Below are positions 1,597 to 61,299 of a stretch of DNA of 64,000 nt, in pieces. Position 1 is the first letter of the stretch. Every line of letters begins with the position of its first letter. The notes under the pieces are model-generated. The model searched no databases. It had not been told where the DNA came from and saw nothing but the letters and a program-made list of their open reading frames with translations. Both the position numbers and the translations under genes were made by a program. The DNA lies in contig JAQXDZ010000032.1 in the NCBI GenBank assembly GCA_029251085.1, positions 124,001-188,000 of the forward strand. Direction: 5' to 3'. Origin of the DNA: Mariniblastus sp. Its GTDB lineage: Bacteria; Planctomycetota; Planctomycetia; Pirellulales; Pirellulaceae.

Positions 1597-2891
1597 TAGA
1601 CCGATTCCATTCCGGCAAGCGTGCCAGTCGATTGACCGAATTGATCAGTTTCCATGCCGAACTGTTGCAGCATGCTAAGAAACAAATTCGATGCAGGTGG
1701 GCGATTGTTTTGATTTTCAAAACTGAGGTGTCGTCCATGTCGAAATCCACCGCCGGCGAGAATCAAGGGAAGGCGTTTGTTGCTGTGAGAGCTCGCATTT
1801 CCCATGCCGCTACCGAAAAGAGTGATCGTATTGTCGAGCAATGTCTTTCCGTTAGGTTCTTCGATAGAGCTTAATTGGTCGAGGAAGCCTGCAAACTTTT
1901 TGACAAGAAAAGATTCAATAATGGAGAGTTCGGCGATGTAGCCCGGAACTTTGCCATGATGAGTTAGCTGATGGTAACCGCGTGTGACGCCCAGTCCGCC
2001 ACCATCGCTGCCAATATCCGCAGTACCGAACGTGATGACACGCGTCGAGTCGGTTTGAAGCGCTAATGCGATTAGGTCGTAGTAAAGTGGAACGCGTTTT
2101 GAGAAATTAAGATTTGCAGCTTCTTTGGGGAGCTGGTAATCGACGGTTGGTTTGGGGTGGTCAATCCAAAGTCGCGTTTGGTCAAGTTGTTTTTCAACGG
2201 AGCGAATTGAAGAAAAATATCGGTCAAGTTTTTCCCGGTCACTTTTTCCGACTTGTTTGGTTAAACGATCAGCATCTGTTTTTACAAGATCAAGAATGCT
2301 CGACTGGCTGTTTAGTTCACGCTCGGCAGTACGTTTTTTGGCGGGGCTGGATTTTTGAAACAGCAGATCGAAAATTTGATTCAGATTTGTAATCGTAGGA
2401 AGGGCAACGCCAGCGTTAGACCAGGACAGCTTGTTGTTTTTTGAAAGCGAAGACGAAAATTGAAGAGATGAAAAACGAGTTTTAGATTGAGTCATTTCCG
2501 CTGCTTTTTGATCAACAGAAATGTTTCGCTCTTTAAAACCCTTAGAGTTTTTTGAAAGTATCCCGGTTAGGTAAGCGTGAATGCCGGCGTGTCCGCCTTG
2601 TCCGTTGATGCCGTGATCTAAGTGCGAGAAGATAGTGAAATCAGGTTTGTGATTTTGAAGTGGTTTCAAAAGATCTGGTAAATCGTATTGGTCTCCCGTT
2701 TTCTCAGGAAAAAAAAGTTGTGGAACGAAACCAAAGTTGTTACCAATACAGACCATCCGCTTGGGAACCGACAAGTCAACTGATTTCGTGGCATTGGTGG
2801 ATGCCATGGCATCGAGATGGGGAAGAAACAGGGCAGACCCACCGAGTCCCTTCAAAAAGTGCCGACGCTCAAGTTTGTTGCTCATTGCCAT
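1596..2891 (-). CDS. DUF1552 family secreted protein
   Basis: This 431-residue protein starts with a Tat-like leader containing ERRHFLKGLGGSALFLP. It then follows the DUF1552 pattern: VPKRMVCIGNNFGF near residue 42, FTIFSHLDHG near residue 85, and GSGMGNASSHSNKRLP towards the C-terminus. DUF1552 proteins are nearly always paired with DUF1592 proteins in planctomycetes, as here with the downstream gene whose ATG overlaps this stop codon. No catalytic activity is established; the fold is related to the alkaline-phosphatase/DUF1501 type. A second in-frame ATG two codons downstream (2885) is equally possible as start. The divergent neighbour across about 160 bases is a sulfatase, which is typical company for this pair. 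Confidence 0.9.
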   Translation of the reverse strand: MAMSNKLERRHFLKGLGGSALFLPHLDAMASTNATKSVDLSVPKRMVCIGNNFGFVPQLFFPEKTGDQYDLPDLLKPLQNHKPDFTIFSHLDHGINGQGGHAGIHAYLTGILSKNSKGFKERNISVDQKAAEMTQSKTRFSSLQFSSSLSKNNKLSWSNAGVALPTITNLNQIFDLLFQKSSPAKKRTAERELNSQSSILDLVKTDADRLTKQVGKSDREKLDRYFSSIRSVEKQLDQTRLWIDHPKPTVDYQLPKEAANLNFSKRVPLYYDLIALALQTDSTRVITFGTADIGSDGGGLGVTRGYHQLTHHGKVPGYIAELSIIESFLVKKFAGFLDQLSSIEEPNGKTLLDNTITLFGSGMGNASSHSNKRLPLILAGGGFRHGRHLSFENQNNRPPASNLFLSMLQQFGMETDQFGQSTGTLAGMESV

Positions 2892-3053
2892 TGTTAACCA
2901 AGAAAGTTTCTATGTTCAGCCAGATCGTCAATCCTAGCACTGTTTCGGTTCAAAATAAAAGATAGATTTGATGAACGAGCGCTTAAAATAAAATGAGTTG
3001 CTGATTTGTAATAAATCGTGACTAACCGTAATAAATTTGGGAGACCTAGTTTT

Positions 3054-4628
3054 ATGCACCGAGTCAACATCGAACGTATGATCATTTTTAGGTTGAGTCT
3101 ATTGCTGTTCGGTGTTGCAATTTTCATCGTTGTTCGCCCAACTAAGGCCGCTGCCGAACAACCCAATATTTTGTTTATCTATACTGATGATCAAAGTCAT
3201 CGAACGGTGAGTTGTTACGATGAGGCATATTCGTGGGTGAAAACACCTAACATTGATTCGTTGGCAAAACGCGGTGCCCGATTCACACATGCCTATATTG
3301 GATCTTGGTGTGCCGCTTCTCGTTTGTCAGTGCTGACGGGTCGTCAACAACATGCGATCGAGTCATTTCGGGCAACCGGTGAGTACCCTGGAAATGTCTA
3401 CGATCCTGAACAGTGTCAGTTTTTTCCAAAGCTGCTTCGGCAACGGGGCTATTACACGGCCCAGATAGGCAAGTGGCACACCGGTGACGATTCGGGGTTT
3501 GGCCGCGACTGGGATCATCAAATTGTTTGGAACCGAATTAAGTTCCCCAAGAACTCTCCGAACTATTACGACAATCAATTGATTGTGCGTGATGGCGGTG
3601 ATCCTGTTTTGACAAAAGGTTATTCGACAGATAACTACACGAATTGGGCAATTGATTTTATTAACGGCAAAACCCGAGATCCTCAGAAGCCGTGGATGCT
3701 ATGGCTTTGTTATGGTGCGGTTCATGGTCCGTTCACACCGGCGGATCGACACGAGAACGCCTATCCAGATGCCGATATTCCAGAGCCTTCGGATATTTAT
3801 GGTCCCCGACCAGGGAAACCGAAATACGTTCGAGATGTTGGTTTTTGGGAGAAAAATGAGGTTGGAATTCCAGTCGAAAAAAAGGTGCGCGATCTGCCTC
3901 CCGTGGCCATGGTCGATATCCCGGGAAAGCCTCTCAAGGATTGGGTGCGGCAATATCAGCAGGGCGTGTTAGCGATTGATGAGGGAGTAGGACGGCTGAT
4001 AAAAGTTCTTGAAACAACCGGCCAGTTAGATAATACCGTGATTGTATTTACCTCGGATCAGGGTTTTGCATGGGGGCAGCATGGCTTCAAAAACAAAGTG
4101 GCTCCCTATGATGCCGCAATTCGTGGGCCACTGATTATTGTTAAACCTGACAGCCAGCCAACGGTGATTCGAACGCCGGTGACGGCGGTGGATTTAACCG
4201 CGACGATCATGGCTCAAGCCGAAACAAATCCACAGTGGAAAATGCACGGTCGTGATCTAACTCCACTGATCCAAGGTGTCAAAAACTTTACGGGTGATCA
4301 AGCAAGAATGCTACTGACTCACACAGCTCGCAGTTACGGCAAAAGTACAACGGTTATTCCAAAGCCGGGGGACAAAGCGTTAACGCACGGGCCGGGCGTG
4401 CCGTGGTACGCAATTCTCTGTGAAGGAAAATTTAAGTACGTTCGAACTCTGATCGAAGGTGAGGTCGAAGAGTTGTACGACGTTAATAATGATCCGGAAG
4501 AGTTGGATAATTTAGCGTTAAAGCCAGCTTTTCAAGAAATTCTCGCATCTTATCGAGCCAATGCAAAAGCTGAATTGCAACGAACGGAAGCGCCGTTCGT
4601 TGGTAATTTGCCGGCGGTAAAAAAGTAA
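3054..4628 (+). CDS. Secreted sulfatase (family S1) with CAASR signature
   Basis: This is a secreted arylsulfatase-type hydrolase that removes sulfate esters from an unknown glycan. The N-terminal hydrophobic leader is followed by PNILFIYTDDQ, which carries the two metal-binding Asp residues. The formylglycine motif is CAASRLSVLTGR, with Cys86 as the residue to be oxidised. The second signature is GYYTAQIGKWHTG, and FTSDQGFAWGQHG holds the later metal ligands. I chose the ATG at 3054 because GGGAGA lies about 11 bases upstream; a GTG at 3018 and an ATG at 3078 are also in frame. Ala instead of Pro in the signature is a minority variant (see findings). The DUF1552/DUF1592 pair is divergent, and the gene converges with the propeller gene ending at 4681. 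Confidence 0.93.
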   Translation: MHRVNIERMIIFRLSLLLFGVAIFIVVRPTKAAAEQPNILFIYTDDQSHRTVSCYDEAYSWVKTPNIDSLAKRGARFTHAYIGSWCAASRLSVLTGRQQHAIESFRATGEYPGNVYDPEQCQFFPKLLRQRGYYTAQIGKWHTGDDSGFGRDWDHQIVWNRIKFPKNSPNYYDNQLIVRDGGDPVLTKGYSTDNYTNWAIDFINGKTRDPQKPWMLWLCYGAVHGPFTPADRHENAYPDADIPEPSDIYGPRPGKPKYVRDVGFWEKNEVGIPVEKKVRDLPPVAMVDIPGKPLKDWVRQYQQGVLAIDEGVGRLIKVLETTGQLDNTVIVFTSDQGFAWGQHGFKNKVAPYDAAIRGPLIIVKPDSQPTVIRTPVTAVDLTATIMAQAETNPQWKMHGRDLTPLIQGVKNFTGDQARMLLTHTARSYGKSTTVIPKPGDKALTHGPGVPWYAILCEGKFKYVRTLIEGEVEELYDVNNDPEELDNLALKPAFQEILASYRANAKAELQRTEAPFVGNLPAVKK

Positions 4629-4680
4629 CCAAATCAGATGATTAAATTGGCTGATTAGCCGTTCATTGGTTCTTAAAATT

Positions 4681-6195
4681 CTAATCTTCGAGAGCGACTT
4701 TTGATTCGGGGATATAATTTAATGTGTAATAACCAACGGGGTGCCAAAGTGGATTTCCGTCAGCGGATCGCACGCCGTCAAGGTGAAGTTCGTGGACATG
4801 TCCTTCGTGAAGTTGGTCAACGGTAAGGCGAACCGTCAGTCCATCCTCAGAAACAGACGCGGACGTGATGTTGCACTCGACATGGTCAACTTCCGGGCTG
4901 CCGTAGCTTTCCTGATAGATATAGGTGTAGGTTGGCATTGAGTAAGATTCAATTTTATTCGCCGTCTCTCGATCGACAGGTTTTGTGAATTGAAGCTCAA
5001 ATCCGTCTGGTTTGGCATTCATGCTGAGAACTTCAAAGGGTGTTTTTCCGGTCCATTCCAATCGTTCCAGAGCAAACGGGGATTTACCACGAGAACCCCA
5101 GCCTCGGTTGGTTCCACCAACAAACATCATCCCGTTGGATGCCTGTTCAATTGCCAAATTTCCAGAACCGAATCCTTCGGTGAACGGGAAGCATGCGCCT
5201 TGGTAATGTCCGTTTACTTTTTCAAGGTCGACCCGCATCACCCAGCTGAAGGTTTGGTCGCAAACAAATAGTTGTTCTTTAAACGGTCCAAATTTTCCAT
5301 TTGATTGATCGCAGACGATTCCGGCGGCTGACTGACCCATTTTTTTATAGGGAAATAAAATTGCGGTTGGTTCAAGCTCGGGTAGCTTTTTAGCTTCCGC
5401 CATAATCCTGGAACCGCTTTGTGGATCTTGAGGTCGGGCTCCGATTGCGTCGGTTTCTTTGTACCAGGAGTTTCCTTGTGGATTTCCCTGAAACGAACCG
5501 GGGCGGAGCCATTTTAAGCCGCAGGTGCCGTTCCAAGGGCCTTGGTTGTCGGTATAAAAAACATCGCCAGCGGCGTTAAATCCAATGCCACCCGGTGATC
5601 GGACGCCACTGCATGTGGGTGTCACTGTTCCATCGGGGGAAACACGTAAGCACCAACCTCGGTACTTATTTTGACTGGTAAAGGAACCGGTCAGGCAGAG
5701 CGTAACCCAGATGTCACCGTTGGAATCGAATTCCGAACCAAAAGCATACTCATGATAATCACCATTGATTCCCCATCCATCTGAAATGGTTTCACAGACG
5801 TCAGCTAAGCCGTCTCCCGTCTGATCTTGTAGTCGTGTAATTTCTCCTCGCTGGGTTGCGTATAGAGAACCATCCCGCTCGGCGAGGCCCAGCACTTCGT
5901 GAAGCCCATCCATATATAAGGTCGAGGTTATTTTCGAAGCATCTGGTTGGAGTGGTTTGTGGAACATGTAGATATCGCCACGCCGGGAGGAAACAGCAAG
6001 TCTACCGTCGGCCATAAACTCAAAATCACCCACTTCCAGAACCACCCCTTCCGGAGTTGGAACTTTGCTAATCTTGTAATATTCGGACTGATTAATTTGT
6101 CCGAATGAAACGGTTGGAAATAAAACGATTAGGAAAGCGAGTGCGAGGATGAATGCAGTCGAAGTAAAGCAAGATGAAATAAATCGATGGTTCAT
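4681..6195 (-). CDS. Secreted sorbosone-dehydrogenase-like beta-propeller protein
   Basis: This 504-residue protein has a signal peptide ending near SFGQ. It is followed by propeller-like blades such as [41 protein letters not shown] and [21 protein letters not shown]. That pattern matches the glucose/sorbosone dehydrogenase-like or PVC heme-binding propellers. The last 110 residues (from about [14 protein letters not shown]) resemble an Ig-like domain. There is no CxxCH here; the neighbouring upstream gene supplies five. In other planctomycetes propeller and cytochrome modules often occur in one polypeptide, so the two genes may form one periplasmic dehydrogenase-like complex (inference). 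It is probably the last gene of a three-gene minus-strand set with the cytochrome (102-base gap) and the sulfatase before it. The substrate is unknown. Confidence 0.8.
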
Positions 6196-45061: not shown

Positions 45062-48000
45062 TTATTTATCCTGATCATTGTTTCCAGTTTCAAGCTTATT
45101 TTTGTGCACTTTATACTCTTGCCAAGTCAAAGTACCGTCACCGTTGGTATCGGCATTTGGAAAACGTTCAAAAAACTTATTTTTCCAATACTCGCCGTTC
45201 CGTTCCGTGACCGAATTTTTGGGTGGAGTCGGATTAGTTTTGGCGGGCAGCATTTTAGTTGATGAGTTTTCTGCGGGTGCCGGTTGGTCCGTCGTCGAAA
45301 CCTTTCGCGGCGGTCCGATAAGTTCTCCAAGGATTTTTAGGCGGTGCGTGTTTTTTCCAGTTCGGGCTTGGTACATCTGTTGGGTTGCGTTGGTTACCGA
45401 GTGAACGAATTCCGGGTAGGATCGCCCGGTCACATCGACGAAGCCGCATTGGTGGTTTTCGCGATCTTTTCTTCCGGCCGCAGATTGATCGATCCACTGA
45501 AACCAGTGAACTCCAACGAACCGGGGGTCGGCAAGTGCCGTCGAAAGATAATTGCTAAAGGCGAGGCCTCGCTGGCGTTGGTTCCAGGCGGATGCGAGCC
45601 CTGGGCTGGGCACGCCTCGATCGACGGCGCCGATATGAAACTCTCCAGCAAGGATAGGCATATCGACATTTGCAGGGACCTGCCACGCCCGAACCGTGGA
45701 GTCATAAACATTGACAGAAAACACGTCGGCATGGCCAACTGCGGCTCGCCCGAGAACATTGGGGCCTCGGTGGCAACGACAGCCCAAAAATAATTTATTC
45801 GGTAACACTTCGTTGATTACTTTTTTAGATTTTGCGAAAAAGGCATTAGCGAAATCAAAATAGTAGGGCTCGATATCCTTTCTCGCGGCGGCGGGGATTT
45901 CATTGGATTCGGACTTAAGAACCGTATCCCAACTCGCGTGACTTGTTTCCCAGGCTTGATTGAGCTCTTCGAGGGAAGAATATTTATTCTTCAGTTGTTG
46001 AAGCACCCACTGTTTAGTTGATTCATCATCTGGCATTTCAAAAATAACGGGAGTCAGTCGATCTGGCCACTCGAATTCATTACCCAGGAACAGGCCCAGA
46101 CAATAGGGATCGTCTTTTACAGAAGCGTGTTTTTCAAGACATTTACGCAAGTCGGATTCATAATTATCGCGAAACGGTGACGGAAGTTTTTTTCTCGCTT
46201 GCCACCAAATGGAGGCGATCAAGGTGTAGGGGGTCTTGGCGTCCTCTTGAAGTGGTTTGCTGCTCCAGGAGCCAAGGGTATTGATACCCCAAGCCCGCAT
46301 TCGGTCGTGGATTCCATCTCGACTGATTTTTTTCCAGTTAGGACCTAACGCCCGGGCATAATTCATGGCTGGAAAGTTGACGAATTCCCGACCTTGATTC
46401 TTTTTGAGGCCGGTCCAGCGGAGTTTATGATTGTCATCCGGTAGCCATTCGAAAAAACCAGCCTCTCGTCGAGAGGGGGTAACGGGCGTAGCCGATTCGT
46501 CTCCCGCAAGACAGACGCCGACGGAAAAGAAAAGATAGCCTTCCGGGTCGATTAGCCACCAGCGGCCATCCACTTTTTCAGTCCGGAAATGGCCAGTGGC
46601 ATTCTGTTTTGGGCCGTCTTTCCAGCCTCCGAAGCGGCTCAAGTTTTTAGTACTTGCAGCTAGTTTGGCGGTTTCTAATTCGTTAGTCAGCGAGGCCGTG
46701 AGGTCTGAGATCTGTTCGATTTTACCTGGCCAGTCGAGAGCATTGACTTGCCCTAATTCATCTAAATACGGCATTGTGTGGAGGGCTTTGTCACGTTCTG
46801 CAGTGGCTTTCCAGCAAACGACCGGGTCGCTAACGCGAATATTTACTTTGCCTGTTGAGGATTGGATGTCTAGTTTTAGCGTTCGCACATCGGCGGGATA
46901 AAATCGTCGCCAGTGCATTCTGTGCCCGTTGGGTTTGGATAATTGGTCACGGAAAACGGCTGGCCCTTGATAGGTAGATTCTTCTTGCGGAAATACAAAC
47001 CCCAGCATCGAAGCCTCTTGAGAAGGTGCTACGCCGAACCCGACACAATGCCGAGACCACCCCGTCACATCGCTATTGTTTAACTTGCCATCGACGATCG
47101 TTACCCCTGGCTCGCGATTGAAAAGCGGGACGCCAACGAGTCGAAATTTTGAAACATCCCACTTCTCTCCTTCGTCAGGAACGAATTCAATAGTCAACGG
47201 AGAGTTTCCCTGAATAATCCAATCGTCTCCCTCGCGTTTGATGTTCCCTTTGAATTGATTGCTAATCTTTAATTTCAACGTTTCGATGGGTTGAAATAAT
47301 TCAGCGGTGTTTATTTGATTGGTTTGATTTACATGGGGCTTTGTCTCGGCGGCTGAATTCGTTGGCTTAAAAACGGAAACTGGTAACGGTTTGGTGCTGC
47401 GTGCGGTCTCCACAATCCGTTTAAGTTCCGCACGCATTTGGATGACTCTGGCCTGTTGTTTTTCGTCGTTCAGCAGATCATTCGTTTCTTTTAAATCAGA
47501 GGCCAGATTAAATAAATGAAGAGGCTTTTGTTCCCGCGAGGTGATGAGTTTCCAATCACCCATCCGAACCATTTTTGCGAGCTGCTGTCCGTAGCGAGGC
47601 TCCGAGTTGGCTTGGACGAAGAGAGATTTTCGAACCGAACCAGATTGGTCTCCATTGAGCACTGAGAGAAATGACTCGCTGTCGAGGCCTTGCTCAGGTT
47701 CGACTGCCTGACCTGTCAAATTAGCGAAGGTCGCGTAAATATCCTGGAGTCCGACCAGGGCATCCGAACGACTTCCCGGAGCAATGACTGATCCGGCTGG
47801 CGTGCCGTCACCCCATCTAACGATCATGGGAATGCGATGGCCCCCTTCCCAGATCGAAGCTTTGCTGCCGCGAAGTCCGCCGCATGAGTCGTGTCCAAGT
47901 TTTTGTGCTTCTGGTTTGCCGCGCGCAAGTCCACCGTTGTCGCTCACGAAGAGAATCAGAGTGTTGTTTAGTTCTCCGTGGTGCCGAAGTCGGTCAATCA

Positions 48001-48928
48001 TCTTTCCGAGCGTAACATCCGCCTCGAAGAGCATGTCGAGGTGAGCATCTCCCGCCGCCCCTTTAATTTTTATGCCGTCCAGTTCCAGCGGAGGCGTATG
48101 TGGTTTGTGACAAGATTCAGTGCAGTAATGCATGAAGAAAGGCTTGCGTTGACCGGCAGCCTGATTGTTGGAAATGTGTTGATCAATGAACTGAATTGCT
48201 TTGTTTGTCAGAATCGGACCGATTTGTGAAGTGTCCCAGTCGGGAGTTCCAAATCCGGTTTTTAATATGAGCGAGTTACCATGCGTTCCTTTTTCCCAGA
48301 TTTTTAATTCTCGGGGGTTCCCGGCGAGGAGACCATTTTCAAAGGCGATATAGGGCGGCCCCTGAATTCCTTGTGGTAATTCGTAGGCATAGTCGAACCC
48401 GAAGCTGAAGGGACTGTTTTCGATAGGTCGGGAAAAATCAATATCTCGAAAATCGTATTTCCACGAGATGGGTTTACCCGTGGTCTTGCTAAACATTTGG
48501 CCACCGAGGTGTACTTTTCCTAAAAACGCGGTGTGGTATCCCGCATTTTTCATTAGATGCCCAATCGTTTGCTGACCGTCGAGAACTTGGGAGGGCTGAT
48601 GGAAAATCCACGTGCCATTTTCCAGTCTGCCGCGATAGGGGTAGTTACCAGTTAGAACGCTGTATCTGGTGGGTGCGCAAACGGACGAAGGAGAATGAGC
48701 GTCAGTGAAGAGCATCCCGTCGGTGGCGAGCTGTTCGAGATTGGGGAGGGCAACCTTGCTGTCTGTATTGTAAGACCGGCAATCACCATATCCCATGTCA
48801 TCCATTAGAAATAAAATGACGTTGGGAGGTTCGTTGGCCGACACAATTGATGTGAAATAACCGCTGCTCAAAACAATAATTGTCAAGCAAAGAGACGCGA
48901 TTGCGGAGTTTGTTTTTAAAGGGCTCAT
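45062..48928 (-). CDS. Sulfatase - GH50 beta-agarase-like - EF-hand fusion protein
   Basis: A 1288-residue exported enzyme with at least three parts. Residues 34-512 are a complete S1 sulfatase: PNVILFLMDDMGYGDCRSY, signature VCAPTRYSVLTG with Cys84 as formylglycine, GYHTAFLGKVHLGG and FVSDNGGLARGK. Residues about 540-770 are beta-rich and possibly carbohydrate-binding. Residues 775-1195 match GH50 beta-agarases: VDGRWWLIDPEGYLFFSVGV, MRAWGINTLGSWSS, LGLFLGNEFEW with acid/base Glu951, AGEFHIGAVDRG with nucleophile Glu1096, and FVGVHWFQWIDQ. The tail carries an EF-hand loop (DTNGDGTLTWQE, 1260-1271). The start at 48928 places the leader first and leaves seven bases after the upstream stop; a longer frame begins at 48982. 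Desulfation and agarose-chain cleavage in one chain is the obvious reading. Confidence 0.9.
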   Translation of the reverse strand: MSPLKTNSAIASLCLTIIVLSSGYFTSIVSANEPPNVILFLMDDMGYGDCRSYNTDSKVALPNLEQLATDGMLFTDAHSPSSVCAPTRYSVLTGNYPYRGRLENGTWIFHQPSQVLDGQQTIGHLMKNAGYHTAFLGKVHLGGQMFSKTTGKPISWKYDFRDIDFSRPIENSPFSFGFDYAYELPQGIQGPPYIAFENGLLAGNPRELKIWEKGTHGNSLILKTGFGTPDWDTSQIGPILTNKAIQFIDQHISNNQAAGQRKPFFMHYCTESCHKPHTPPLELDGIKIKGAAGDAHLDMLFEADVTLGKMIDRLRHHGELNNTLILFVSDNGGLARGKPEAQKLGHDSCGGLRGSKASIWEGGHRIPMIVRWGDGTPAGSVIAPGSRSDALVGLQDIYATFANLTGQAVEPEQGLDSESFLSVLNGDQSGSVRKSLFVQANSEPRYGQQLAKMVRMGDWKLITSREQKPLHLFNLASDLKETNDLLNDEKQQARVIQMRAELKRIVETARSTKPLPVSVFKPTNSAAETKPHVNQTNQINTAELFQPIETLKLKISNQFKGNIKREGDDWIIQGNSPLTIEFVPDEGEKWDVSKFRLVGVPLFNREPGVTIVDGKLNNSDVTGWSRHCVGFGVAPSQEASMLGFVFPQEESTYQGPAVFRDQLSKPNGHRMHWRRFYPADVRTLKLDIQSSTGKVNIRVSDPVVCWKATAERDKALHTMPYLDELGQVNALDWPGKIEQISDLTASLTNELETAKLAASTKNLSRFGGWKDGPKQNATGHFRTEKVDGRWWLIDPEGYLFFSVGVCLAGDESATPVTPSRREAGFFEWLPDDNHKLRWTGLKKNQGREFVNFPAMNYARALGPNWKKISRDGIHDRMRAWGINTLGSWSSKPLQEDAKTPYTLIASIWWQARKKLPSPFRDNYESDLRKCLEKHASVKDDPYCLGLFLGNEFEWPDRLTPVIFEMPDDESTKQWVLQQLKNKYSSLEELNQAWETSHASWDTVLKSESNEIPAAARKDIEPYYFDFANAFFAKSKKVINEVLPNKLFLGCRCHRGPNVLGRAAVGHADVFSVNVYDSTVRAWQVPANVDMPILAGEFHIGAVDRGVPSPGLASAWNQRQRGLAFSNYLSTALADPRFVGVHWFQWIDQSAAGRKDRENHQCGFVDVTGRSYPEFVHSVTNATQQMYQARTGKNTHRLKILGELIGPPRKVSTTDQPAPAENSSTKMLPAKTNPTPPKNSVTERNGEYWKNKFFERFPNADTNGDGTLTWQEYKVHKNKLETGNNDQDK

Positions 48929-48935
48929 AAAAAAG

Positions 48936-50549
48936 TCAGTTAGAGTTTTGAGTGTTGATTTGAAGTTCAGGGACCATTTCATTTAAACGAGCTCGCATAG
49001 ATCTCAAAACCGGTTGATGAGCTTTATGGGATGCCAAATTATTCCATTCGTGTGGATCGTTGTTATGGTCGTAAAGTTCTTCGCTTCCGTTGCGGTACCG
49101 GATATACCGCCAGTCCGCCGAGCGAATAGACCAGTTTTGATTTTTAAGATTGAACTTTTGGGTTTTGTCGAGTTTCAGATACTCCCCGACAAAAATCATC
49201 GAGAGCGCGGTGTCCGGTCCTTCCCAAGTTCCATGTTGAGGATTTTCAATTAGCGGGCGGATGCTGTGACCATCCAGTTTTGCCCCCTGCTTATTCTTGC
49301 GTGTATCTCCATCGAGTGCACATAAATCAATTAGCGTTGGATATAAATCGATCAATGAAATTGGTTGTTGGCAGCGCAAGCCCGGTCCTTTCAAACCGGG
49401 AGTGCGAATTATGAAGGGGACGCGGGTGCTCTCTTCCCAAGGCGAATTTTTGAAGAGGTAATCTTTTTCACCCATGTTCCATCCATGATCACTCGTTACC
49501 ACGATGATTGTATTGTTGCGGATTGAAGGATCGGGCGATGAATCAATCGCATCGACAATTTCTCCGATGCATTCATCAACTGCGGCGACTCCTGCAAGGT
49601 AGGCTTGAGTGAATGCTTTGAGGGCATCCTCCCGAGTGGGGTAAGAGTCTAACAATGTTTGATAATATCGCAGGCCTTTTTGCTCGGGAGCATAGACGTC
49701 CGTGTAGTAGGTGTCTTCGGCATCTCCAATGCGGGTAACAGGGAGTTGGATATCTTCGAGTGGAAATAAATCAAAAAACTTTTTTGGGACGTGGATGGGC
49801 GTGTGAGGACGTATTAATCCGATACCTAAGAAAAACGGAGACTGAAATTCTGGATCAGCAAAATTACGAATTTGGTCAGCTGCCCATTTTGCGTTTCGCT
49901 CGTCAGGCGTAGGGTCTCGGTCGTTTTCTGAGACGTAGCGAAACGGCTGTCGTTTTTTCCAGTTGCCATAAATCCATCCACTTTCTGGATTGCCATCATC
50001 GGCATAGGGCACTCTGGAAAGTGGTGCGAAGGAGCCATCTACAGCACCGATGGCTCGGAATGGCATTGGCACGTCTGGGTGAGCGACTCGTTGATTTCCG
50101 TCGTAAATGGAGGGGCCATAATCCGCGCGGTGTTTGAATTTACTCCATTCGTTTGGTTTGCCATGGTGCATTAATTTCCCAGATCCTGCCACGTGATAAC
50201 CATTGTCTCGGAAATGTTCCATGATCGTTTTTGAGTTTTTTAAGACAGGGTTTTCGAACCATTTCCCCCAGAATAAATTGCCGGAAGTGTGTGGATAGAT
50301 GCCTGTTAAAAAACTGGAACGCGAGGGAGCGCAAACTGGATTGTTACTGTAAGCACAATCAAAAGAAACACCGGACTTAGCCAAAGCTTTCATGGACGGT
50401 GTTCGAGTCTGAGGGTGTCCCTCGAAGCCCTCGACATAATCATTGAGATCATCGCAGATGATAAGGACAACGTTCGGGCGTTCATCAGCGGCAACCCAGT
50501 GGTTGATCGAGCAGAGAATCGCGAGCGAGCCAAACAGCAATAATTTCAT
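48936..50549 (-). CDS. Iduronate-2-sulfatase-like secreted sulfatase
   Basis: A 537-residue S1 sulfatase with leader ending near WVAAD. PNVVLIICDDLNDYVEGFEG is the iduronate-sulfatase-type first block. VCAPSRSSFLTGIYPHTSG is the signature (Cys73). GYHVAGSGKLMHHG holds the Lys and His, and VTSDHGWNMGEKDYLFKN holds late metal ligands. SADWRYIRYRNGSEELYDHN, followed by NDPHEW, is the standard C-terminal block. The ATG overlaps the stop of the upstream sulfatase by four bases (ATGA), and the sulfatase-agarase fusion starts seven bases after this stop, so translation across the three genes is probably coupled. It closely resembles the sulfatase at 52108 in the catalytic domain but lacks its EF-hand tail. 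Confidence 0.95.
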   Translation of the reverse strand: MKLLLFGSLAILCSINHWVAADERPNVVLIICDDLNDYVEGFEGHPQTRTPSMKALAKSGVSFDCAYSNNPVCAPSRSSFLTGIYPHTSGNLFWGKWFENPVLKNSKTIMEHFRDNGYHVAGSGKLMHHGKPNEWSKFKHRADYGPSIYDGNQRVAHPDVPMPFRAIGAVDGSFAPLSRVPYADDGNPESGWIYGNWKKRQPFRYVSENDRDPTPDERNAKWAADQIRNFADPEFQSPFFLGIGLIRPHTPIHVPKKFFDLFPLEDIQLPVTRIGDAEDTYYTDVYAPEQKGLRYYQTLLDSYPTREDALKAFTQAYLAGVAAVDECIGEIVDAIDSSPDPSIRNNTIIVVTSDHGWNMGEKDYLFKNSPWEESTRVPFIIRTPGLKGPGLRCQQPISLIDLYPTLIDLCALDGDTRKNKQGAKLDGHSIRPLIENPQHGTWEGPDTALSMIFVGEYLKLDKTQKFNLKNQNWSIRSADWRYIRYRNGSEELYDHNNDPHEWNNLASHKAHQPVLRSMRARLNEMVPELQINTQNSN

Positions 50550-52107: not shown

Positions 52108-54105
52108 TTATTTTTCATCCAGCTTGGCTTTGAAACTTTTGTATTCAGGCCAGCTTAAATCTCCGTCTTGATTGGTGTCAGCTTCGGGATGTTGCTTGAA
52201 GAACTTATTCTTCCATTGCAGGTCCGGCATTTGTTTTTCTTGTTGTGCAGAATCTAATTGCTTGTTCGTTGTTTTGGGACGCTGAACATCGAGTGCAGGT
52301 TTGGAATCTGCGTCTGATTTATGAGCTTTTCGTTCGGGCCAGGACAGGACTCCGTCTCCATTCGTATCCGCCTCCGGATGCTTTTTAAAATATTCAGCTT
52401 TCCAATATTCAGCCGTTTTTTTATCAGCTGCCGGTTTTCCGTTAACCGGAGGATTGGATTGGATTGGCTTCTTGGGTTTAAAAACAGGTTGCTTGGGAAT
52501 CGAATCTTTTTCTGTAGGAATGCGTTTGATCAACTCACCTCGAAGAGCTGCTAACGGGCCGGCGTGGCTAGGGTCGGTTACTAGATTGTTCCACTCATGT
52601 GGGTCCGAGATGGTTTGATAAAGTTCCTCTTTCCCGTTTTCATAGCGGATGTAGCGGTAGTCGTTTGACCGGAGGGAATAGTTTTCTTTGGCTGGGTTGT
52701 ACTTGGTACGCCATTTGTAGAGTGCGGTAAGTACTGATTCAGGGCCTTCCCAGCTTTTCGTTTTGGCGTTTTCTAAAATTGGTTTAAGGCTGAATCCATC
52801 GAGTGGTCGGCCTTTCGTGTTTTTCATCGTTTCACCGTTGAGGCCACACAGGTCCACTAAAGTTGGATAAATATCAATCAGTGAAACAGGATGCGCTGAG
52901 ACACTTCCCGGCAGTGAGACCCCCGGAGCGCGAATAACGAGTGGAATTCGCGTGCTTTCCTGCCACAGTGAGTTCTTGTAGAGATAATCTTTCTCGCCCA
53001 TGCCCCACCCGTGGTCACTGGTTACGATGACGATCGTGTTATCTGCAAGAGAAGTTTGTTCGACGACATCCATAATATTCCCGATCAGATCGTCTACCGA
53101 CGCAACGCTGGCGAGATAGGCTTGGATAAATCGTTTGAGCGCTTCTTCACGGGTTTCATAGGACGCGACAAGGTCCTTGTACAAGCGGCTCCCCATGTCC
53201 ATGGTGCGTGTTGAATTTGGTTCTTTTGAAGCTACGTTTCCGCGAATGGAAAGGGCGAATGTATCGTCGACATCTCCTTTTTTTATTTCCGGTAACTCAA
53301 TCGTATCGAGTGGAAATTGGTCGAAGAAACGTTTGGGAACGACGAGCGGAGTGTGGGGTCGAATAAAACCTACGCCCATGAAGAAAGGCTGGTCTCCAGG
53401 CTTGTCAGCGAATTCTTTTAGGCGATCGACAGCCCATTGAGCATTGAGTTCGTCTGCAGTTTGATCACGATTTTCTTGTGTCGTAATGTTGAGCGGCCGC
53501 GTTTTTCCCCAGCCGCCGGTAAGCCATGAAAATGGCACTCCGTCTTTATTCGTCCGACCGGAAATGTCGACGAGAGGGCCAAACGAACCGTCGACAGTCC
53601 CAATTTCACGATAGGGTGCCGGGACATCAGGATGTGCTACGCGATCACTGCCGGTCAGGGCGAATGGACCATAATCGGCAGGGTTACCATATTGATTCCA
53701 TTCTTTGGGAACCAAGTGGTGCATTAGTTTTCCAGTCCCGAGCGTGAGATATCCATTGGCTCGAAAGTGATCCATTAATGTCCGAGAATTTTTTAGAACT
53801 TCGTACTCATTCCATTTTGTGAATCCAAAGCAGCTGGAATGATGTGGGTAGATTCCAGTAAATAGACTCGCCCGGGAGGGGCCACAAATGGGAATGTTGC
53901 AATGAGCCTGAGTGAAGGTAACCCCGGTCTTACTTAAGCGGGCGATGTTAGGAGTTTGAGTTTGGGGGTGTCCACCAAAGCCTTCAACGTAATCGTTGAG
54001 GTCATCGCAGATGATCAAAATCACATTAGGTTGCTGAACCGCCAGAGCATCGGTGAGCGGATGACAAGTCAAAGCCAAGCACAGAAGCAGAAATTTAGTT
54101 TTCAT
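52108..54105 (-). CDS. Iduronate-2-sulfatase-like sulfatase with two C-terminal EF-hand modules
   Basis: A 665-residue exported sulfatase that heads the six-gene minus-strand cluster. PNVILIICDDLNDYVEGFGG, PICGPSRASLFTGIYPH (Cys74), GYLTLGTGKLMHHLV and VTSDHGWGMGEKDYLYKN are the usual catalytic blocks, ending near residue 525. A Pro/Lys-rich linker follows. Then come two similar modules of about 35 residues, each YWK/WKN-x-F-K-K/Q-HPEAD plus an EF-hand loop (DTNGDGVLSWPE at 580-591 and DTNQDGDLSWPE at 643-654). The same module ends the sulfatase-agarase fusion in this cluster. The ATG at 54105 is chosen because it begins the leader, with AGG before it. Calcium-dependent attachment or stability is inferred from the EF loops. 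Confidence 0.94.
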   Translation of the reverse strand: MKTKFLLLCLALTCHPLTDALAVQQPNVILIICDDLNDYVEGFGGHPQTQTPNIARLSKTGVTFTQAHCNIPICGPSRASLFTGIYPHHSSCFGFTKWNEYEVLKNSRTLMDHFRANGYLTLGTGKLMHHLVPKEWNQYGNPADYGPFALTGSDRVAHPDVPAPYREIGTVDGSFGPLVDISGRTNKDGVPFSWLTGGWGKTRPLNITTQENRDQTADELNAQWAVDRLKEFADKPGDQPFFMGVGFIRPHTPLVVPKRFFDQFPLDTIELPEIKKGDVDDTFALSIRGNVASKEPNSTRTMDMGSRLYKDLVASYETREEALKRFIQAYLASVASVDDLIGNIMDVVEQTSLADNTIVIVTSDHGWGMGEKDYLYKNSLWQESTRIPLVIRAPGVSLPGSVSAHPVSLIDIYPTLVDLCGLNGETMKNTKGRPLDGFSLKPILENAKTKSWEGPESVLTALYKWRTKYNPAKENYSLRSNDYRYIRYENGKEELYQTISDPHEWNNLVTDPSHAGPLAALRGELIKRIPTEKDSIPKQPVFKPKKPIQSNPPVNGKPAADKKTAEYWKAEYFKKHPEADTNGDGVLSWPERKAHKSDADSKPALDVQRPKTTNKQLDSAQQEKQMPDLQWKNKFFKQHPEADTNQDGDLSWPEYKSFKAKLDEK
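52111..52419 (-). other. Duplicated EF-hand (calcium-binding) C-terminal modules
   Basis: Two tandem modules in the sulfatase ending at 52108. Each holds a canonical 12-residue EF loop with Asp at positions 1 and 5 (Asn at 3), hydrophobic residue at 8 and Glu at 12, preceded by an aromatic helix ending HPEAD. A linker of about 40 residues lies between them. A single copy is present at 45065-45202 in the sulfatase-agarase fusion, with FPNAD in place of HPEAD. Confidence 0.85.
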
Positions 54106-54516
54106 GATGATGAGACCTGCGGGTGCACTCACTGTGTGAATTGCGTGAGGGTACCCGCCGTGTTAAGTAGGTTTACAAAAAGGAAGGGAGTCATCATTTC
54201 CTGTTGACTGACACCCCAGTCGTGCGGAAAAGCCGTCGCCTCGAAAGGTTATTCCACAGGCGATTGGATTTACGGTCGAATCTAAAAGTTTACCAAATAT
54301 TTATGGGTTATTGGAAAAATTGAATTTTGAATAACGCTCCCTCGGTTGTCCACATCTATATTTATATTGGATTCGTCAGGTGAAATCTTCGGGTTTAGGG
54401 GAGCACAGGAAATTCGTTTGGGATTGGATTTAGCAACTAAATTTTATGTTTAAAAAGAATCGTAATTTGTGGTAAATCGAACCGCCTGTGGAATAACGTT
54501 ACAGAGGGCAGCAATA
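54106..54516. promoter_or_regulatory. Divergent regulatory region between the agarase/sulfatase cluster and the ECF sigma operon
   Basis: About 410 bases carry the promoters of two divergent operons. The central part is AT-rich. At 54307-54335 nested inverted repeats occur: GTTATT ... AATAAC on the outside and AAAATT-G-AATTTT inside, offset by one base. A smaller GACTG-N6-CAGTC repeat lies near 54205. A strong ribosome-binding site, AGAGGG, is at 54502-54507 and fits a TTG start at 54517. No ORF or RNA gene is seen. Confidence 0.5.
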
Positions 54517-56861: not shown

Positions 56862-58436
56862 GTGATTAGATTCTTTTTGACCTGTAGTTTGGTAATGCTG
56901 TTTCTGCCTAACTTCAGTTTGCAAGCCACTGATGATGCAGTTCAACCCGTCCCCTCGGATGTTGTGCCGGTCAAAATTAAAAACAAGAAACCTCGGAATG
57001 TTGTTTTCATTTTGAGTGATGATCATCGTTATGATGCGATGAGTTTTCTTGGACACCAGTTCGCGGAAACGCCTCACATGGATGCGATGGCTGCCAATGG
57101 TGTTCATTTCGAGAATGCTCTGGTTACGACATCGCTTTGCTCGCCAAGTCGAGCTTCGATCTTGACGGGGCTCTATACGTTTCGCCACCGAGTCATTGAT
57201 AACAACCGAATGGTGCCAGAGGGAACCTTGTTTTTCCCCCAGTACCTACAAAAAGCTGGTTACTCAACCGGCTTTATTGGTAAGTGGCATATGGGTGGGC
57301 ACCACGATCGGCCACGGCCAGGATTTGATTATTGGGTCAGTTTCAAAGGGCAAGGTCATTACCTGGCACCGGGGCCGAACTACACATTGAACGTTAACGG
57401 GGAAAGGGTCAAGCAAAAGGGATACATCACGACTGAACTGACTGATTATGCGCTTGATTTTTTGGAAGACCAGAAAGACAGTGAGAAGCCATTCTTTTTG
57501 TATCTTTCTCATAAAGCCGTCCACGCCAATTTCACGCCAGAAAAGAAATACGATCAGAAGTTTGCGGACAAGCCATTTGCCCGACCGGCGAGCGAACAAA
57601 AGCTGGAAGATAATCAAAGGAACCTACCTCGATGGTTGCTCGACCAGCGTAACAGTTGGCACGGGGTCGACTTCCCTTATCACAGTGATCTAAATGTTGA
57701 ACAATATTACAAACGGTATTGCGAGTCATTGTGCTCGGTCGATGACAGTGTCGGCGCGGTGATGGAACAACTTAAGAAGATGGGAATTCATGATGAAACG
57801 CTCGTTATCTATATGGGTGACAATGGATTTATGTTTGGTGAGCACGGCTTGATTGATAAGCGTGTCGCGTATGAGACATCCATCCGAGTGCCCATGCTGA
57901 TGCAATGCCCGGATCTTTTTAAAGGCGAAACGGTGGTCGATAAAATGGTGGCCAATATCGATATCGCTCCGACGGTTATGGAAGCGATGGGACTTGAAAA
58001 GCCAGTTCACATGGATGGAGATAGTTTTATTCAACTGGCTCAGGGAAAGTCCGTGCCTTGGCGAGAGTATTTCCTATATGCCTACTATTGGGAGAAAAAC
58101 TTTCCGCAATCGCCGACAGTCTTTTCATTGCGGAGTGATAAGTATAAATACACAACGTATTACGGACTGTGGGATACTGACGAGTTTTTTGATCTTCAAG
58201 CAGATCCAATGGAGCAAAATAATCTAATTCGTAATCCAAGTGTTGGTAAGGAAGCCAAAGCGATGGAAAATCGGCTTTACAAAATGATGGCGGATTTAGG
58301 CGGAATGGATATTCCAATGAATCAACCAAGGGGCAGCTCACAAAACAAACGATTGGAAACACGTGGCGGAGATCGCGCCGCTGATTTCCCCCAAGCACTC
58401 GTTGTTCCTGAGCCACTCAATAAGAACGCGAAGTAA
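56862..58436 (+). CDS. Secreted sulfatase (family S1) in the ECF sigma operon
   Basis: A 524-residue exported sulfatase beginning with GTG, preceded by AAGGA eleven bases upstream. NVVFILSDDHRYDAMSFLGH, LCSPSRASILTGLYTFRH (signature, Cys93) and GYSTGFIGKWHMGGH are canonical. YMGDNGFMFGEHGLIDKRVA supplies late metal ligands. The insertion around RPGFDYWVSFKGQGHYLAPG resembles N-acetylglucosamine-6-sulfatase and related enzymes. The C-terminal region is extended (ETRGGDRAADFPQALVVPEP). It lies 95 bases after the FecR/LamG gene on the same strand, so it may be part of that operon and a target of the ECF factor. A short hairpin follows at 58468-58486. Confidence 0.93.
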   Translation: MIRFFLTCSLVMLFLPNFSLQATDDAVQPVPSDVVPVKIKNKKPRNVVFILSDDHRYDAMSFLGHQFAETPHMDAMAANGVHFENALVTTSLCSPSRASILTGLYTFRHRVIDNNRMVPEGTLFFPQYLQKAGYSTGFIGKWHMGGHHDRPRPGFDYWVSFKGQGHYLAPGPNYTLNVNGERVKQKGYITTELTDYALDFLEDQKDSEKPFFLYLSHKAVHANFTPEKKYDQKFADKPFARPASEQKLEDNQRNLPRWLLDQRNSWHGVDFPYHSDLNVEQYYKRYCESLCSVDDSVGAVMEQLKKMGIHDETLVIYMGDNGFMFGEHGLIDKRVAYETSIRVPMLMQCPDLFKGETVVDKMVANIDIAPTVMEAMGLEKPVHMDGDSFIQLAQGKSVPWREYFLYAYYWEKNFPQSPTVFSLRSDKYKYTTYYGLWDTDEFFDLQADPMEQNNLIRNPSVGKEAKAMENRLYKMMADLGGMDIPMNQPRGSSQNKRLETRGGDRAADFPQALVVPEPLNKNAK

Positions 58437-59148: not shown

Positions 59149-61299
59149 TTATTGCAAACCGGACCTTTGTTTTGCACTGTTTTTCTTTTGTCGCTGAGGC
59201 CCAATTGCAGGGTCGGCATTTTTGACTGGGATTTGTTTTTTCAGTTTGGATTTTAACGTTTCCATTTCCGGTTGATTGGCAATATTAGTCCATTCGTTGG
59301 GATCACTCCGAAGGTCGTATAATTCTTCAGATCCGTCGCGATAGCGAATGTAACGATGCGTGTCTGTGCGGACGCTGTGATTGTCTTTTCCATGTGTCGT
59401 CAGCGCGGGGTGATGCCAAGTTGCCTTGGGATCGTTCAGTAAAGGAATGAGGCTGTTGCCCTCAAGTTCGTCGCGAGGAGACAATCCACAAAGATCGATA
59501 AGCGTGGGGTAAATTGAGAGCAACTCAGCAGGTTGCGAGCAGACTTGGCCTTGCTTACCTCCCGGCTGGACAATGATAAAAGGAACGCGAGTTGCTCGTT
59601 CCCACAGTGATTGCTTAGCCCATCGCTCTTTTTCACCGAGGAAAAAACCGTGGTCAGAATACAGGATTACAATCGTATTGTCAGCTAATGGACTTTGGTA
59701 AACCGTGTCGAGTAACCGGCCGACCTGTTCGTCGGTGAAGCGGATGCAAGACAGGTAAGATTGCACTGCCCGACGCCAATTGGATGACTTTACAAACCAA
59801 GCATGGTCAGGCGCAGCTGGGGCGACCATCAATTCACTGGCGATCGCGGGCAAGTCATCACGGTCGTTCGGATTTACCAGAGGCAGTTCGATTTCATCGA
59901 GTGGGATTTGATCGAAAATTCGTTTGGGTGAGTAGAAGGGGACATGAGGTCGATAGAAACCAATTGCCATAAAAAATGGTTTAGCAGTTTGGGGGTTTGC
60001 ACTAGTGCGTCTGGTGGTTTCATGGGCTTGGATTTGATCGATCGCCCAGCTCGCAGTTTGATGATCCTGGAATAATTTTTCGTCATATGACTGCGCCCCG
60101 AAATCCCAAAGGCCATTAGCTCCCTCTTTTTTTGGAGTCACCAGGCGTTGGTCAATTTTGAGTCGCTGTCCCGGCCGCGGGCCGACTACGTCAAAATCGC
60201 CATCCGGGAGTCCCGAAGTATGATAGATTTTTCCTGTCGTATAGGTTTTGTATCCGTTTGCAGCAAAATGACGAGAGAGTGTTACGTTTTCTTTTAAACC
60301 GGTGACTGTCCATGGCTTGGGGGCATTCATATAAACGCCGCTGGTCGAGGGTCTTAAACCGTACATGATGCTAGTTCGGGACGGATTGCAGATTGGAGCT
60401 TGGCAGTGAGCATTGGTGAACAGCGTTCCACGTTTAGCGAGGCGGTCGATGTTGGGTGAGCTTGCTTGTGGGTGACCGCCCAGGCAGCCAACCCAATCAT
60501 TAAGATCGTCGATCGCAATCAATAAAACATTGGGTGACTTGTCAGGGACAGGACTCGAAACTTCGGTTAGGTAAATATCTTTGAATTCGACTTTCATCCC
60601 GGGGTCATGAACCTGTAACCCAATCCCACCCTGACTAAATTGCCCGTTGGTGTAATTGTCTGTGAATTCAGAGGAGAGTTGGCCGTTGATAAAAAACTTA
60701 AAATGATTTTTTCGGGCCACAATACGTACCTGGTTCCATTGATCGTGCAGAATACCCTTTTGCTCGATCGGAGAAACAAGTTTTGTGCGGGTTGCCTCGT
60801 CGCTCAAATTAATAACGAGATTGGTGCCGCGGTCGCAACGATGTTCTTTGCGATTGGTGAAATGAAAATCCCACGCACCGAGAATGTGTTTGCCAATTCC
60901 AGGGTGCCCTAAATCGGCGTGGTAACCAATAAGCGGACGCTTACCGGAGGGATCGGCCTGCGAGCGAACCTCGATTCCTGTATTTCCTTTTCCATGCAAC
61001 CGGTAGCTCAGTGACAAGTCAAAATTCGTTAGCTTCTGATTGTTCCATGTCAGGTAGGAAAGTCGTTTTTGAGTGCCGGTTCCGACAATCATCCCGTTTT
61101 TAACTTGCCAGTCAGAGGCACAATCAGCCGGAACGGCTTGCCAGCCATTCAATGTTTCGCCATCAAAAATTGCTGTCTTGGATTGATTGGGCTTGAGGAC
61201 TTGTTCGTCGGCATTGGCATCGGCGGCTGTGAGTGCGACTAAAGCAACCAGACTTGCATTCAGTAGATATAACAGCGTGGAATTTATTCGGGTGGGCAT
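59149..61299 (-). CDS. DUF1080 domain fused to an iduronate-2-sulfatase-like sulfatase
   Basis: A 716-residue exported fusion. The leader ends near ADANA. The N-terminal DUF1080 domain (about 40-245) has AIFDGETLNGWQAVPADC, DLSLSYRLHGKGNTGIEVRS, the insertion GKHILGAWDFHFTNRKE, and HFKFFINGQLSSEFTD. The sulfatase follows after a short linker: PNVLLIAIDDLNDWVGCLGG, APICNPSRTSIMYG with Cys304 as formylglycine, GYKTYTTGKIYHTSG and LYSDHGFFLGEKERWAKQ. The final signature residue is Tyr-Gly rather than Thr-Gly. The start is the first ATG of the leader. DUF1080 may bind the glycan or act on keto-sugars; in this fusion a binding role is plausible. Its sulfatase half is closest to the iduronate-type enzymes of the window. 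Confidence 0.94.
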   Translation of the reverse strand: MPTRINSTLLYLLNASLVALVALTAADANADEQVLKPNQSKTAIFDGETLNGWQAVPADCASDWQVKNGMIVGTGTQKRLSYLTWNNQKLTNFDLSLSYRLHGKGNTGIEVRSQADPSGKRPLIGYHADLGHPGIGKHILGAWDFHFTNRKEHRCDRGTNLVINLSDEATRTKLVSPIEQKGILHDQWNQVRIVARKNHFKFFINGQLSSEFTDNYTNGQFSQGGIGLQVHDPGMKVEFKDIYLTEVSSPVPDKSPNVLLIAIDDLNDWVGCLGGHPQASSPNIDRLAKRGTLFTNAHCQAPICNPSRTSIMYGLRPSTSGVYMNAPKPWTVTGLKENVTLSRHFAANGYKTYTTGKIYHTSGLPDGDFDVVGPRPGQRLKIDQRLVTPKKEGANGLWDFGAQSYDEKLFQDHQTASWAIDQIQAHETTRRTSANPQTAKPFFMAIGFYRPHVPFYSPKRIFDQIPLDEIELPLVNPNDRDDLPAIASELMVAPAAPDHAWFVKSSNWRRAVQSYLSCIRFTDEQVGRLLDTVYQSPLADNTIVILYSDHGFFLGEKERWAKQSLWERATRVPFIIVQPGGKQGQVCSQPAELLSIYPTLIDLCGLSPRDELEGNSLIPLLNDPKATWHHPALTTHGKDNHSVRTDTHRYIRYRDGSEELYDLRSDPNEWTNIANQPEMETLKSKLKKQIPVKNADPAIGPQRQKKNSAKQRSGLQ

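Follow-up and report, generated by a model that had tools for sequence, protein, structure and literature searches.

A predicted exported protein joining an S1 sulfatase to a GH50 beta-agarase-like unit in Mariniblastus and its relatives in two bacterial phyla

A 64,000-nucleotide stretch of a Mariniblastus sp. genome (GenBank assembly GCA_029251085.1, contig JAQXDZ010000032.1, positions 124,001 to 188,000; hereafter the window, whose coordinates are used throughout) encodes a single polypeptide (45062..48928, minus strand, like the parts of this gene and the neighboring genes P0002 to P0006 located below) in which an S1 sulfatase is followed by a glycoside hydrolase family 50 (GH50) unit. Both domains carry intact catalytic signatures, they form a single conserved fusion lineage present in two phyla, and sulfatases recur as its partners. 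With moderate confidence, we regard the protein as a secreted bifunctional enzyme for sulfated agaran (an agar-type galactan), i.e., as an exo-sulfatase/exo-beta-agarase hybrid working in consecutive steps; the agaran substrate, the exo mode, and the consecutive action are what we infer from these observations.

The reading frame runs continuously through sulfatase and GH50 unit, as the original prediction had held. In its longest form (45062..48982), it would give 1306 amino acids from an ATG at 48982, and residues are counted from that codon here; numbers in the original prediction equal these minus 18, and its Cys84, Glu951, and Glu1096 are the Cys102 (in VCAPTR), Glu969 (in GNEFEW), and Glu1114 (in GEFHIGA) described below. 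The shorter start chosen there, at 48928 (Met19 of the longest frame; 1288 amino acids), is better supported than the ATG at 48982, because five orthologous frames (loci L040, L041, L042, L047, and L049), all opening directly behind the stop codon that ends the sulfatase gene ahead of them, match the window protein only from residue 17 on. Residues 19–49 (48836..48928) read as a Sec-type signal peptide with cleavage likely after VSA-49, a prediction made from the sequence alone. The view of one exported chain was upheld, its sulfatase and its GH50 part both looking intact and being conserved as a unit.

The sulfatase domain comprises residues 50–535 (47378..48835). The Pfam family Sulfatase (PF00884) matched residues 53–424 (E 2e-41; 142.7 bits against a cut-off of 25), SGSH_C was matched as well, and in a phmmer search of the Protein Data Bank (PDB), many S1 sulfatases matched the N-terminal part of the protein. 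For five proteins compared with NCBIfam, generic sulfatase-type matches alone were returned, all under the cut-off. The formylglycine motif, C/S-x-P/A-S/T-R, is satisfied by CAPTR at residues 102–106 (Cys102 codon, 48677..48679). Conservation was assessed in an alignment of 23 fusion proteins, namely the window's own and those of 22 loci, one of which (L039) is 98% identical to it. Cys102, Pro104, and Arg106 are invariant in all 23, and so are Lys156, His158, His292, Asp348, Asn349, and Lys374; Asp61 and Asp62 are present in 22 of the 22 rows covering them (one row is cut). Apart from those of the motif, we take these residues to belong to the S1 metal and sulfate site.

The GH50 unit consists of an N-terminal beta-sandwich resembling a carbohydrate-binding module (residues 557–775, 46658..47314; recognized from predicted strands and with Foldseek) and the catalytic barrel (residues 776–1210, 45353..46657; phmmer and Foldseek). 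A GH50 domain had been proposed for residues 775–1195, and such a match was found: with the whole protein as query, phmmer returned GH50 agarases over residues 831–1210 (5z6p, E 4e-65; 4bq2, E 2e-61), and with the GH50 fragment alone, the E-values were 4e-66 and 2e-62, respectively. Pfam, searched at E 0.1, gave no GH50 barrel family for the fusion protein. When the GH50 half was modeled separately with AlphaFold, the predicted local distance difference test score (pLDDT) was 92.1 and the predicted template modeling score (pTM) 0.92. Foldseek placed two-domain GH50 agarases at ranks 1–15 for this half (TMq 0.69–0.75; alignments of 701–767 columns) and BpGH50 at ranks 16–17; GH50 chains also held ranks 1–15 for the whole model. 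Both glutamates of the original prediction coincide in sequence alignments with the catalytic pair of solved enzymes, Glu969 (codon 46076..46078) falling on their NE (4bq4 reads NQ there) and Glu1114 (codon 45641..45643) on the E of GEFH. They are invariant in the 23 fusion proteins and in 36 of 36 GH50 rows, fused and non-fused alike; by this alignment, Glu969 is presumably the acid/base and Glu1114 the nucleophile. The PDB titles of 4bq2–4bq5 read exo-beta-agarase, and three assayed GH50 enzymes release neoagarobiose, according to the accessible part of the report (PMC5943477).

Structure prediction had been suggested as a check for three folded units. Three were modeled within residues 46–1215 (mean pLDDT 87.6), namely the S1 unit, the beta-sandwich, and the barrel. 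Sulfatase and GH50 unit are connected by a linker (residues 536–556, 47315..47377), for which AlphaFold gave mean pLDDT values of 34 (residues 536–545) and 37 (residues 546–555), the low-confidence stretch being residues 535–554. None of its 21 positions is invariant among the fusion proteins, the corresponding numbers being 154 of 486 for the S1 domain, 42 of 219 for the sandwich, and 134 of 435 for the barrel.

That the joined protein is real is confirmed by its recurrence in other planctomycetes and in verrucomicrobia. Scanning genome contigs yielded 44 GH50-related loci, and 21 of them encode S1, beta-sandwich, and GH50 in one frame: eight loci of the Mariniblastus/Pirellulaceae type, two in planctomycete metagenome-assembled genomes with a longer chain (L046 and L048), and 11 in Verrucomicrobiota. 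The fusion is therefore present in Mariniblastus, in a second planctomycete family, and in Verrucomicrobiota. Four further loci (L045, L068, L079, and L080) are cut by a contig end and start within GH50, and 19 have no S1 in frame. At the level of the order, a GH50 match was obtained for 112 of 396 genomes; among the 11 same-genus genomes listed, six have the fusion (the window's own included), one (G323) gave weak matches only, and four gave none. GH50 matches were also obtained for 91 of the 273 genomes in the order to which the verrucomicrobial genome G396 belongs. All 15 of these with a best piece 49–55% identical carry S1, sandwich, and GH50 in one frame (three are cut by a contig end), and the next-best genome (G524; 42%, 745 amino acids) is not fused. 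The genomes behind the same-order, 44-locus, and G396-order counts overlap, and the counts are not additive. Within the window's own genome, one match was found for the GH50 part, and 201 pieces match the whole fusion protein; among the matches listed, everything but the fusion locus and the tail of a neighboring gene product, P0006, is a sulfatase. Five other long GH50 frames (L103, L104, L105, L106, and L107; 1297–1482 amino acids) gave no Sulfatase match at E 0.001, and their long extensions have no or weak Pfam matches.

Identity to the window protein amounts to 54–57% in Verrucomicrobiota and 55–57% in a lineage designated g107. Among the 37 GH50 domains placed in a tree, the 17 from fusion proteins group together as one clade (100/100) on a branch of length 1.07; next to it stands the non-fused verrucomicrobial L085, with weaker support (83/76), followed by L086 and L087. 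The 17 fused S1 domains likewise form one clade (100/100), which is placed poorly relative to seven outgroup S1 domains on long branches. Because each domain yields one clade, a single fusion event with later transfer from either phylum to the other would explain this distribution.

The fusion gene is part of a same-strand run in the order P0006, P0004, P0003, fusion, P0002, and P0005; next to the fusion, adjacent genes are a few bases apart or overlap by as little. Upstream of it lie three sulfatase genes: P0003 (48936..50549), recognized by Pfam and related to P0006; P0004 (50546..51988), two genes away and closest to S1_19 carrageenan sulfatases (9hh3, E 5e-108); and P0006 (52108..54132), a sulfatase by Pfam with two EF-hand-like tails. 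The best solved match of P0006 is 6hhm, the ulvan sulfatase P18_S1_7 according to the accessible part of its description (PMC9096561). In the portions of the literature that were available, S1_19 is named as a subfamily with 4-O-sulfate activity in carrageenan pathways. Downstream, a PSCyt1/PSCyt2/PSD1 protein (P0002, 42239..45058) follows after 3 bases, and then a DUF1501 protein (P0005, 40662..42284).

Such sulfatase partners recur. P0003, with P0004 behind it, is located directly upstream of the fusion in six of the eight Mariniblastus-type loci (L039–L042, L047, and L049). Of the 11 fusion loci in Verrucomicrobiota, 10 have a P0006-type sulfatase gene (52–54% identity) no more than ∼0.9 kb upstream of the fusion and in its orientation; the contig of the eleventh starts inside the fusion. 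In lineage g107, the fusion chain itself runs on C-terminally into a P0004-type sulfatase. This second sulfatase is 63–64% identical to P0004 in L015 and L017 and has its own formylglycine motif, CGPSR; L016 is laid out alike, except that unknown letters interrupt its second sulfatase, and Pfam recognizes two Sulfatase stretches in one chain of L048. L019, L020, L099, and L100 stop before the second sulfatase at contig ends. The frame of the fusion gene is broken in L018, as is that of the non-fused GH50 gene in L088, either naturally or through assembly error. In the non-fused sister GH50 loci examined, a sulfatase gene adjoins GH50 in five of six cases and is one gene away in the sixth. Compared with the sulfatases of the window (P0001, P0003, P0004, P0006, and 56862–58436), these were closest to P0004 each time (L085, 32%; L086, 41%; L087, 55%; L088, 33%; L090, 59%; and L089, one gene away, 28%); only the 41–59% cases would argue for an S1_19 partner. 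Beside the 41% sulfatase gene of L086, a 1571-codon frame (1339–6051, minus strand) carries two GH50 domains in tandem.

That one protein both desulfates and cleaves the chain, as originally proposed, would be the natural reading, because both apparently intact domains are conserved as one unit. Cys102 would be matured to formylglycine, and the N-terminal S1 domain would hydrolyze a sulfate ester, most likely on the non-reducing-end sugar, that would block the GH50 site. The GH50 unit (Glu969/Glu1114) would then cut the beta-1,4 bond and release a disaccharide, which would expose the next sulfated unit, so that the two sites would act in consecutive steps. Further sulfates on this polymer may be taken off by the neighboring S1_19-like and P0006-type sulfatases, the first of which has its g107 counterpart built into the fusion chain.

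Several observations weigh against this reading, some concerning the coupling of the two sites and others the substrate. As to coupling, the whole-chain model has a pTM of 0.59 and therefore defines no arrangement of the two sites. Together with the linker, devoid of invariant positions and low in pLDDT, this would suit a protein whose two domains share a polymer without coupling their steps, and which is fused only so that both are exported together and in a fixed ratio. We consider such independent action unlikely, although it deserves serious attention: a single fusion lineage has stayed intact in two phyla, and the related hybrid P36, compared below, works in consecutive steps. The processive handling of sulfated agarans that the original prediction envisaged found no support. 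As to the neighborhood, gene order is not fixed: the examined stretch of L043 lacks P0003 and P0004, which in L044 are on the other strand, and a P0006-type gene was not seen in the examined flank of L048.

As to the substrate, sulfated agaran is the best guess that the sequences allow. The window's genome contains a GH86 beta-agarase-like gene, with 5ta1 as the best match (E 3e-24), followed by the beta-agarase 8h97 and, more weakly, the porphyranase 4aw7; we take 5ta1 to be the GH86 enzyme of B. uniformis. The gene is located on a 12.5-kb contig together with three sulfatase genes, one of which is the nearest S1 paralogue (39%). In non-fused relatives, GH2, GH50, and GH86-type genes occur together (L089), and GH2 is also found in L085. 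A sulfatase with an N-terminal EF-hand is encoded near the GH86-type gene of the own genome (contig C34, L102:7154–8842, minus strand). On the other side of the balance, the GH50 half is only 23–25% identical to the two-domain solved agarases over aligned columns, and its substrate could have shifted. GH16 genes were rejected as endo-agarase partners, both that were found in the genome being laminarinase-like. The non-fused sister locus L087 contains a GH16-type gene and two genes for alpha-L-fucosidases, a combination that does not suggest plain agar, and several relatives are, judging by titles, apparently from open water, where the source of agaran is unclear.

The S1 domain itself adds to these doubts. 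In the Foldseek search with the whole model, S1_15 enzymes were the first sulfatase folds (eight chains, ranks 16–23), followed by S1_16 and others, the best folds for the S1 domain being lambda-carrageenan S1_15 enzymes; the sequence matches were headed by 3ed4, narrowly above S1_15 entries. The S1_25 entry 6hr5 is absent from the 36 PDB sequences that the S1 part matched at E 1e-20. The sulfate that S1_15 enzymes take off is at position 6 of galactose or N-acetylgalactosamine, an Asp-Arg pair being assigned to O4 and a His to O3 in the accessible parts of the reports (PMC6994673 and PMC10154612). In alignments, the pair falls on Gln207-Gly208, which is Gln-Gly in all 23 fusion proteins, and the likely His position (His234) is His in nine and Tyr in 14 of them; these positions derive from S1_15 alignments in which BT3333 itself is not the reference. 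Since these galactose-recognition residues are not kept, membership in S1_15 was rejected, and because the 0 subsite differs from that of S1_15, no sulfate position can be assigned to the domain. The L-galactose-6-sulfate of porphyran, named originally as the target, was not supported: the nearest fold is that of D-galacto-6-sulfatases, yet their recognition residues are replaced, and the partner in operon and sister lineage is S1_19-like, i.e., of a 4-O-sulfate subfamily, which points to other sulfates. P0004 suggests a putative 4-O-sulfated galactose in the same polymer.

These findings could also mean that the GH50 lineage has shifted to another sulfated galactan (carrageenan-like, an agar/carrageenan hybrid, or microalgal), which the S1_19-like and other sulfatases would reflect. 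The kinship of P0004 to carrageenan sulfatases of S1_19, the lambda-carrageenan S1_15 folds, the lack of an agarase among the GH16 genes found, the separate clade of the fused GH50 domains on its long branch (1.07), and the fucosidases in L087 would fit such a shift; it is nevertheless improbable, given that the GH50 catalytic pair is intact, that a GH86 beta-agarase-like gene is present in the genome, and that GH50, GH86, and GH2 stand together in L089. That a frameshift, a chimeric assembly, or strand misreading makes two genes look joined was rejected on the strength of the orthologues and is practically out of the question: its one point is the draft state of the genome (171 contigs), no frameshift or assembly join was found near residue 540, the frame is found unbroken in assemblies from each of the two phyla, and both sides of the linker are conserved.

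Within the preferred reading of a sulfated-agaran hybrid, a stepwise growth may tentatively be proposed, from GH50 beside an S1_19-like sulfatase to S1-GH50 and on to S1-GH50-S1_19. The g107 polypeptide of ∼1670 residues would then remove two different sulfates and cut the backbone, and the S1 domain would have a new specificity, for a non-D-galacto sugar, perhaps a non-reducing-end L-sugar. This proposal is possible but doubtful.

The original prediction had further included an EF-hand in the architecture. The C-terminal tail (residues 1262–1295, 45098..45199) does contain a loop, DTNGDGTLTWQE (residues 1278–1289), with the canonical 12-residue EF-hand pattern by eye; the Pfam match to EF-hand_5, however, is weak (E 0.097; 12.6 bits, under the cut-off of 25.9). 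The tail is present in eight of the 23 fusion proteins, in the main Mariniblastus clade only; it is absent in 12, and a sulfatase takes its place in three. The loop thus stands as a lineage-specific feature, whereas the EF-hand as an element of the conserved architecture was rejected. Elsewhere in the genome, the tail was matched at E 0.001 only in P0006, twice, and P0006-type genes carry an EF-hand-like tail in loci of both phyla. The tail of the fusion seems to be a tag taken over from the neighboring gene, perhaps for calcium binding or attachment; the short tail common to two neighboring enzymes (45098–45199; 52108–54132) is a possible co-localization tag. The window (1–64000) is dense in sulfatases, with PF00884 in 12 of the 36 frames scanned by Pfam. 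One of its frames (59149–61299, minus strand; 716 amino acids) is a second sulfatase fusion, in which a 3-keto-disaccharide hydrolase domain (PF06439) precedes the sulfatase.

The use that planctomycetes and verrucomicrobia make of their numerous sulfatases is poorly understood, and the fusion provides a defined enzyme for this question. Fusions and recurring neighbors tell which sulfatases pair with which backbone-cutting enzyme. Should it prove active, the protein would serve as a single-chain tool for sulfated agarans, and it would reveal which sulfate blocks GH50 action.

Among known systems, the solved GH50 beta-agarases 4bq2–4bq5 (presumably Aga50D), AgWH50C (5z6p), and PfGH50B (6xj9) share the two-domain unit, the catalytic glutamates, and the fold with the fusion, but they are without a sulfatase and 23–25% identical to its GH50 half. 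The S1_15 enzymes BT3333 (6s20) and Pseudoalteromonas S1_15A/B (9bas and 9bau) provide the best sulfatase folds and are among the best sequence matches to the S1 domain, which differs from them in having Gln-Gly for the Asp-Arg pair and no conserved His. The S1_19 carrageenan sulfatases ZgCgsA (9hh3) and Ps i-CgsB (6bia) match P0004, and hence the extra C-terminal domain of g107; unlike that domain, they are free-standing and belong to carrageenan pathways. A literature search, whose coverage excluded most subscription papers and CAZy, turned up no description of an S1-GH50 enzyme; the claim that no enzyme of this architecture has been characterized holds to that extent, whereas sulfatase-glycoside hydrolase hybrids as such are known. 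Planctomycete sulfatases from Porphyra isolates were reported in 2016 to be fused to glycoside hydrolase domains, together with one double-sulfatase protein (PMC4807772); the accessible part of that report does not name the S1-GH50 architecture and assays no enzyme. A close parallel is P36 of Formosa agariphila, a GH78|S1_25 protein for ulvan, whose chain likewise unites a sulfatase with a glycoside hydrolase and in which, as far as the accessible part of the report goes, these act in consecutive steps: sulfate is first removed at the non-reducing end, and the glycoside hydrolase then cuts (PMC8511951). P36 combines GH78 with S1_25 on ulvan, whereas the fusion combines GH50 with a divergent S1 domain on a substrate that we infer. 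The sulfatase-glycoside hydrolase hybrid is thus already known from P36, and the S1-GH50 pairing, built from other families, is a variant of that type.

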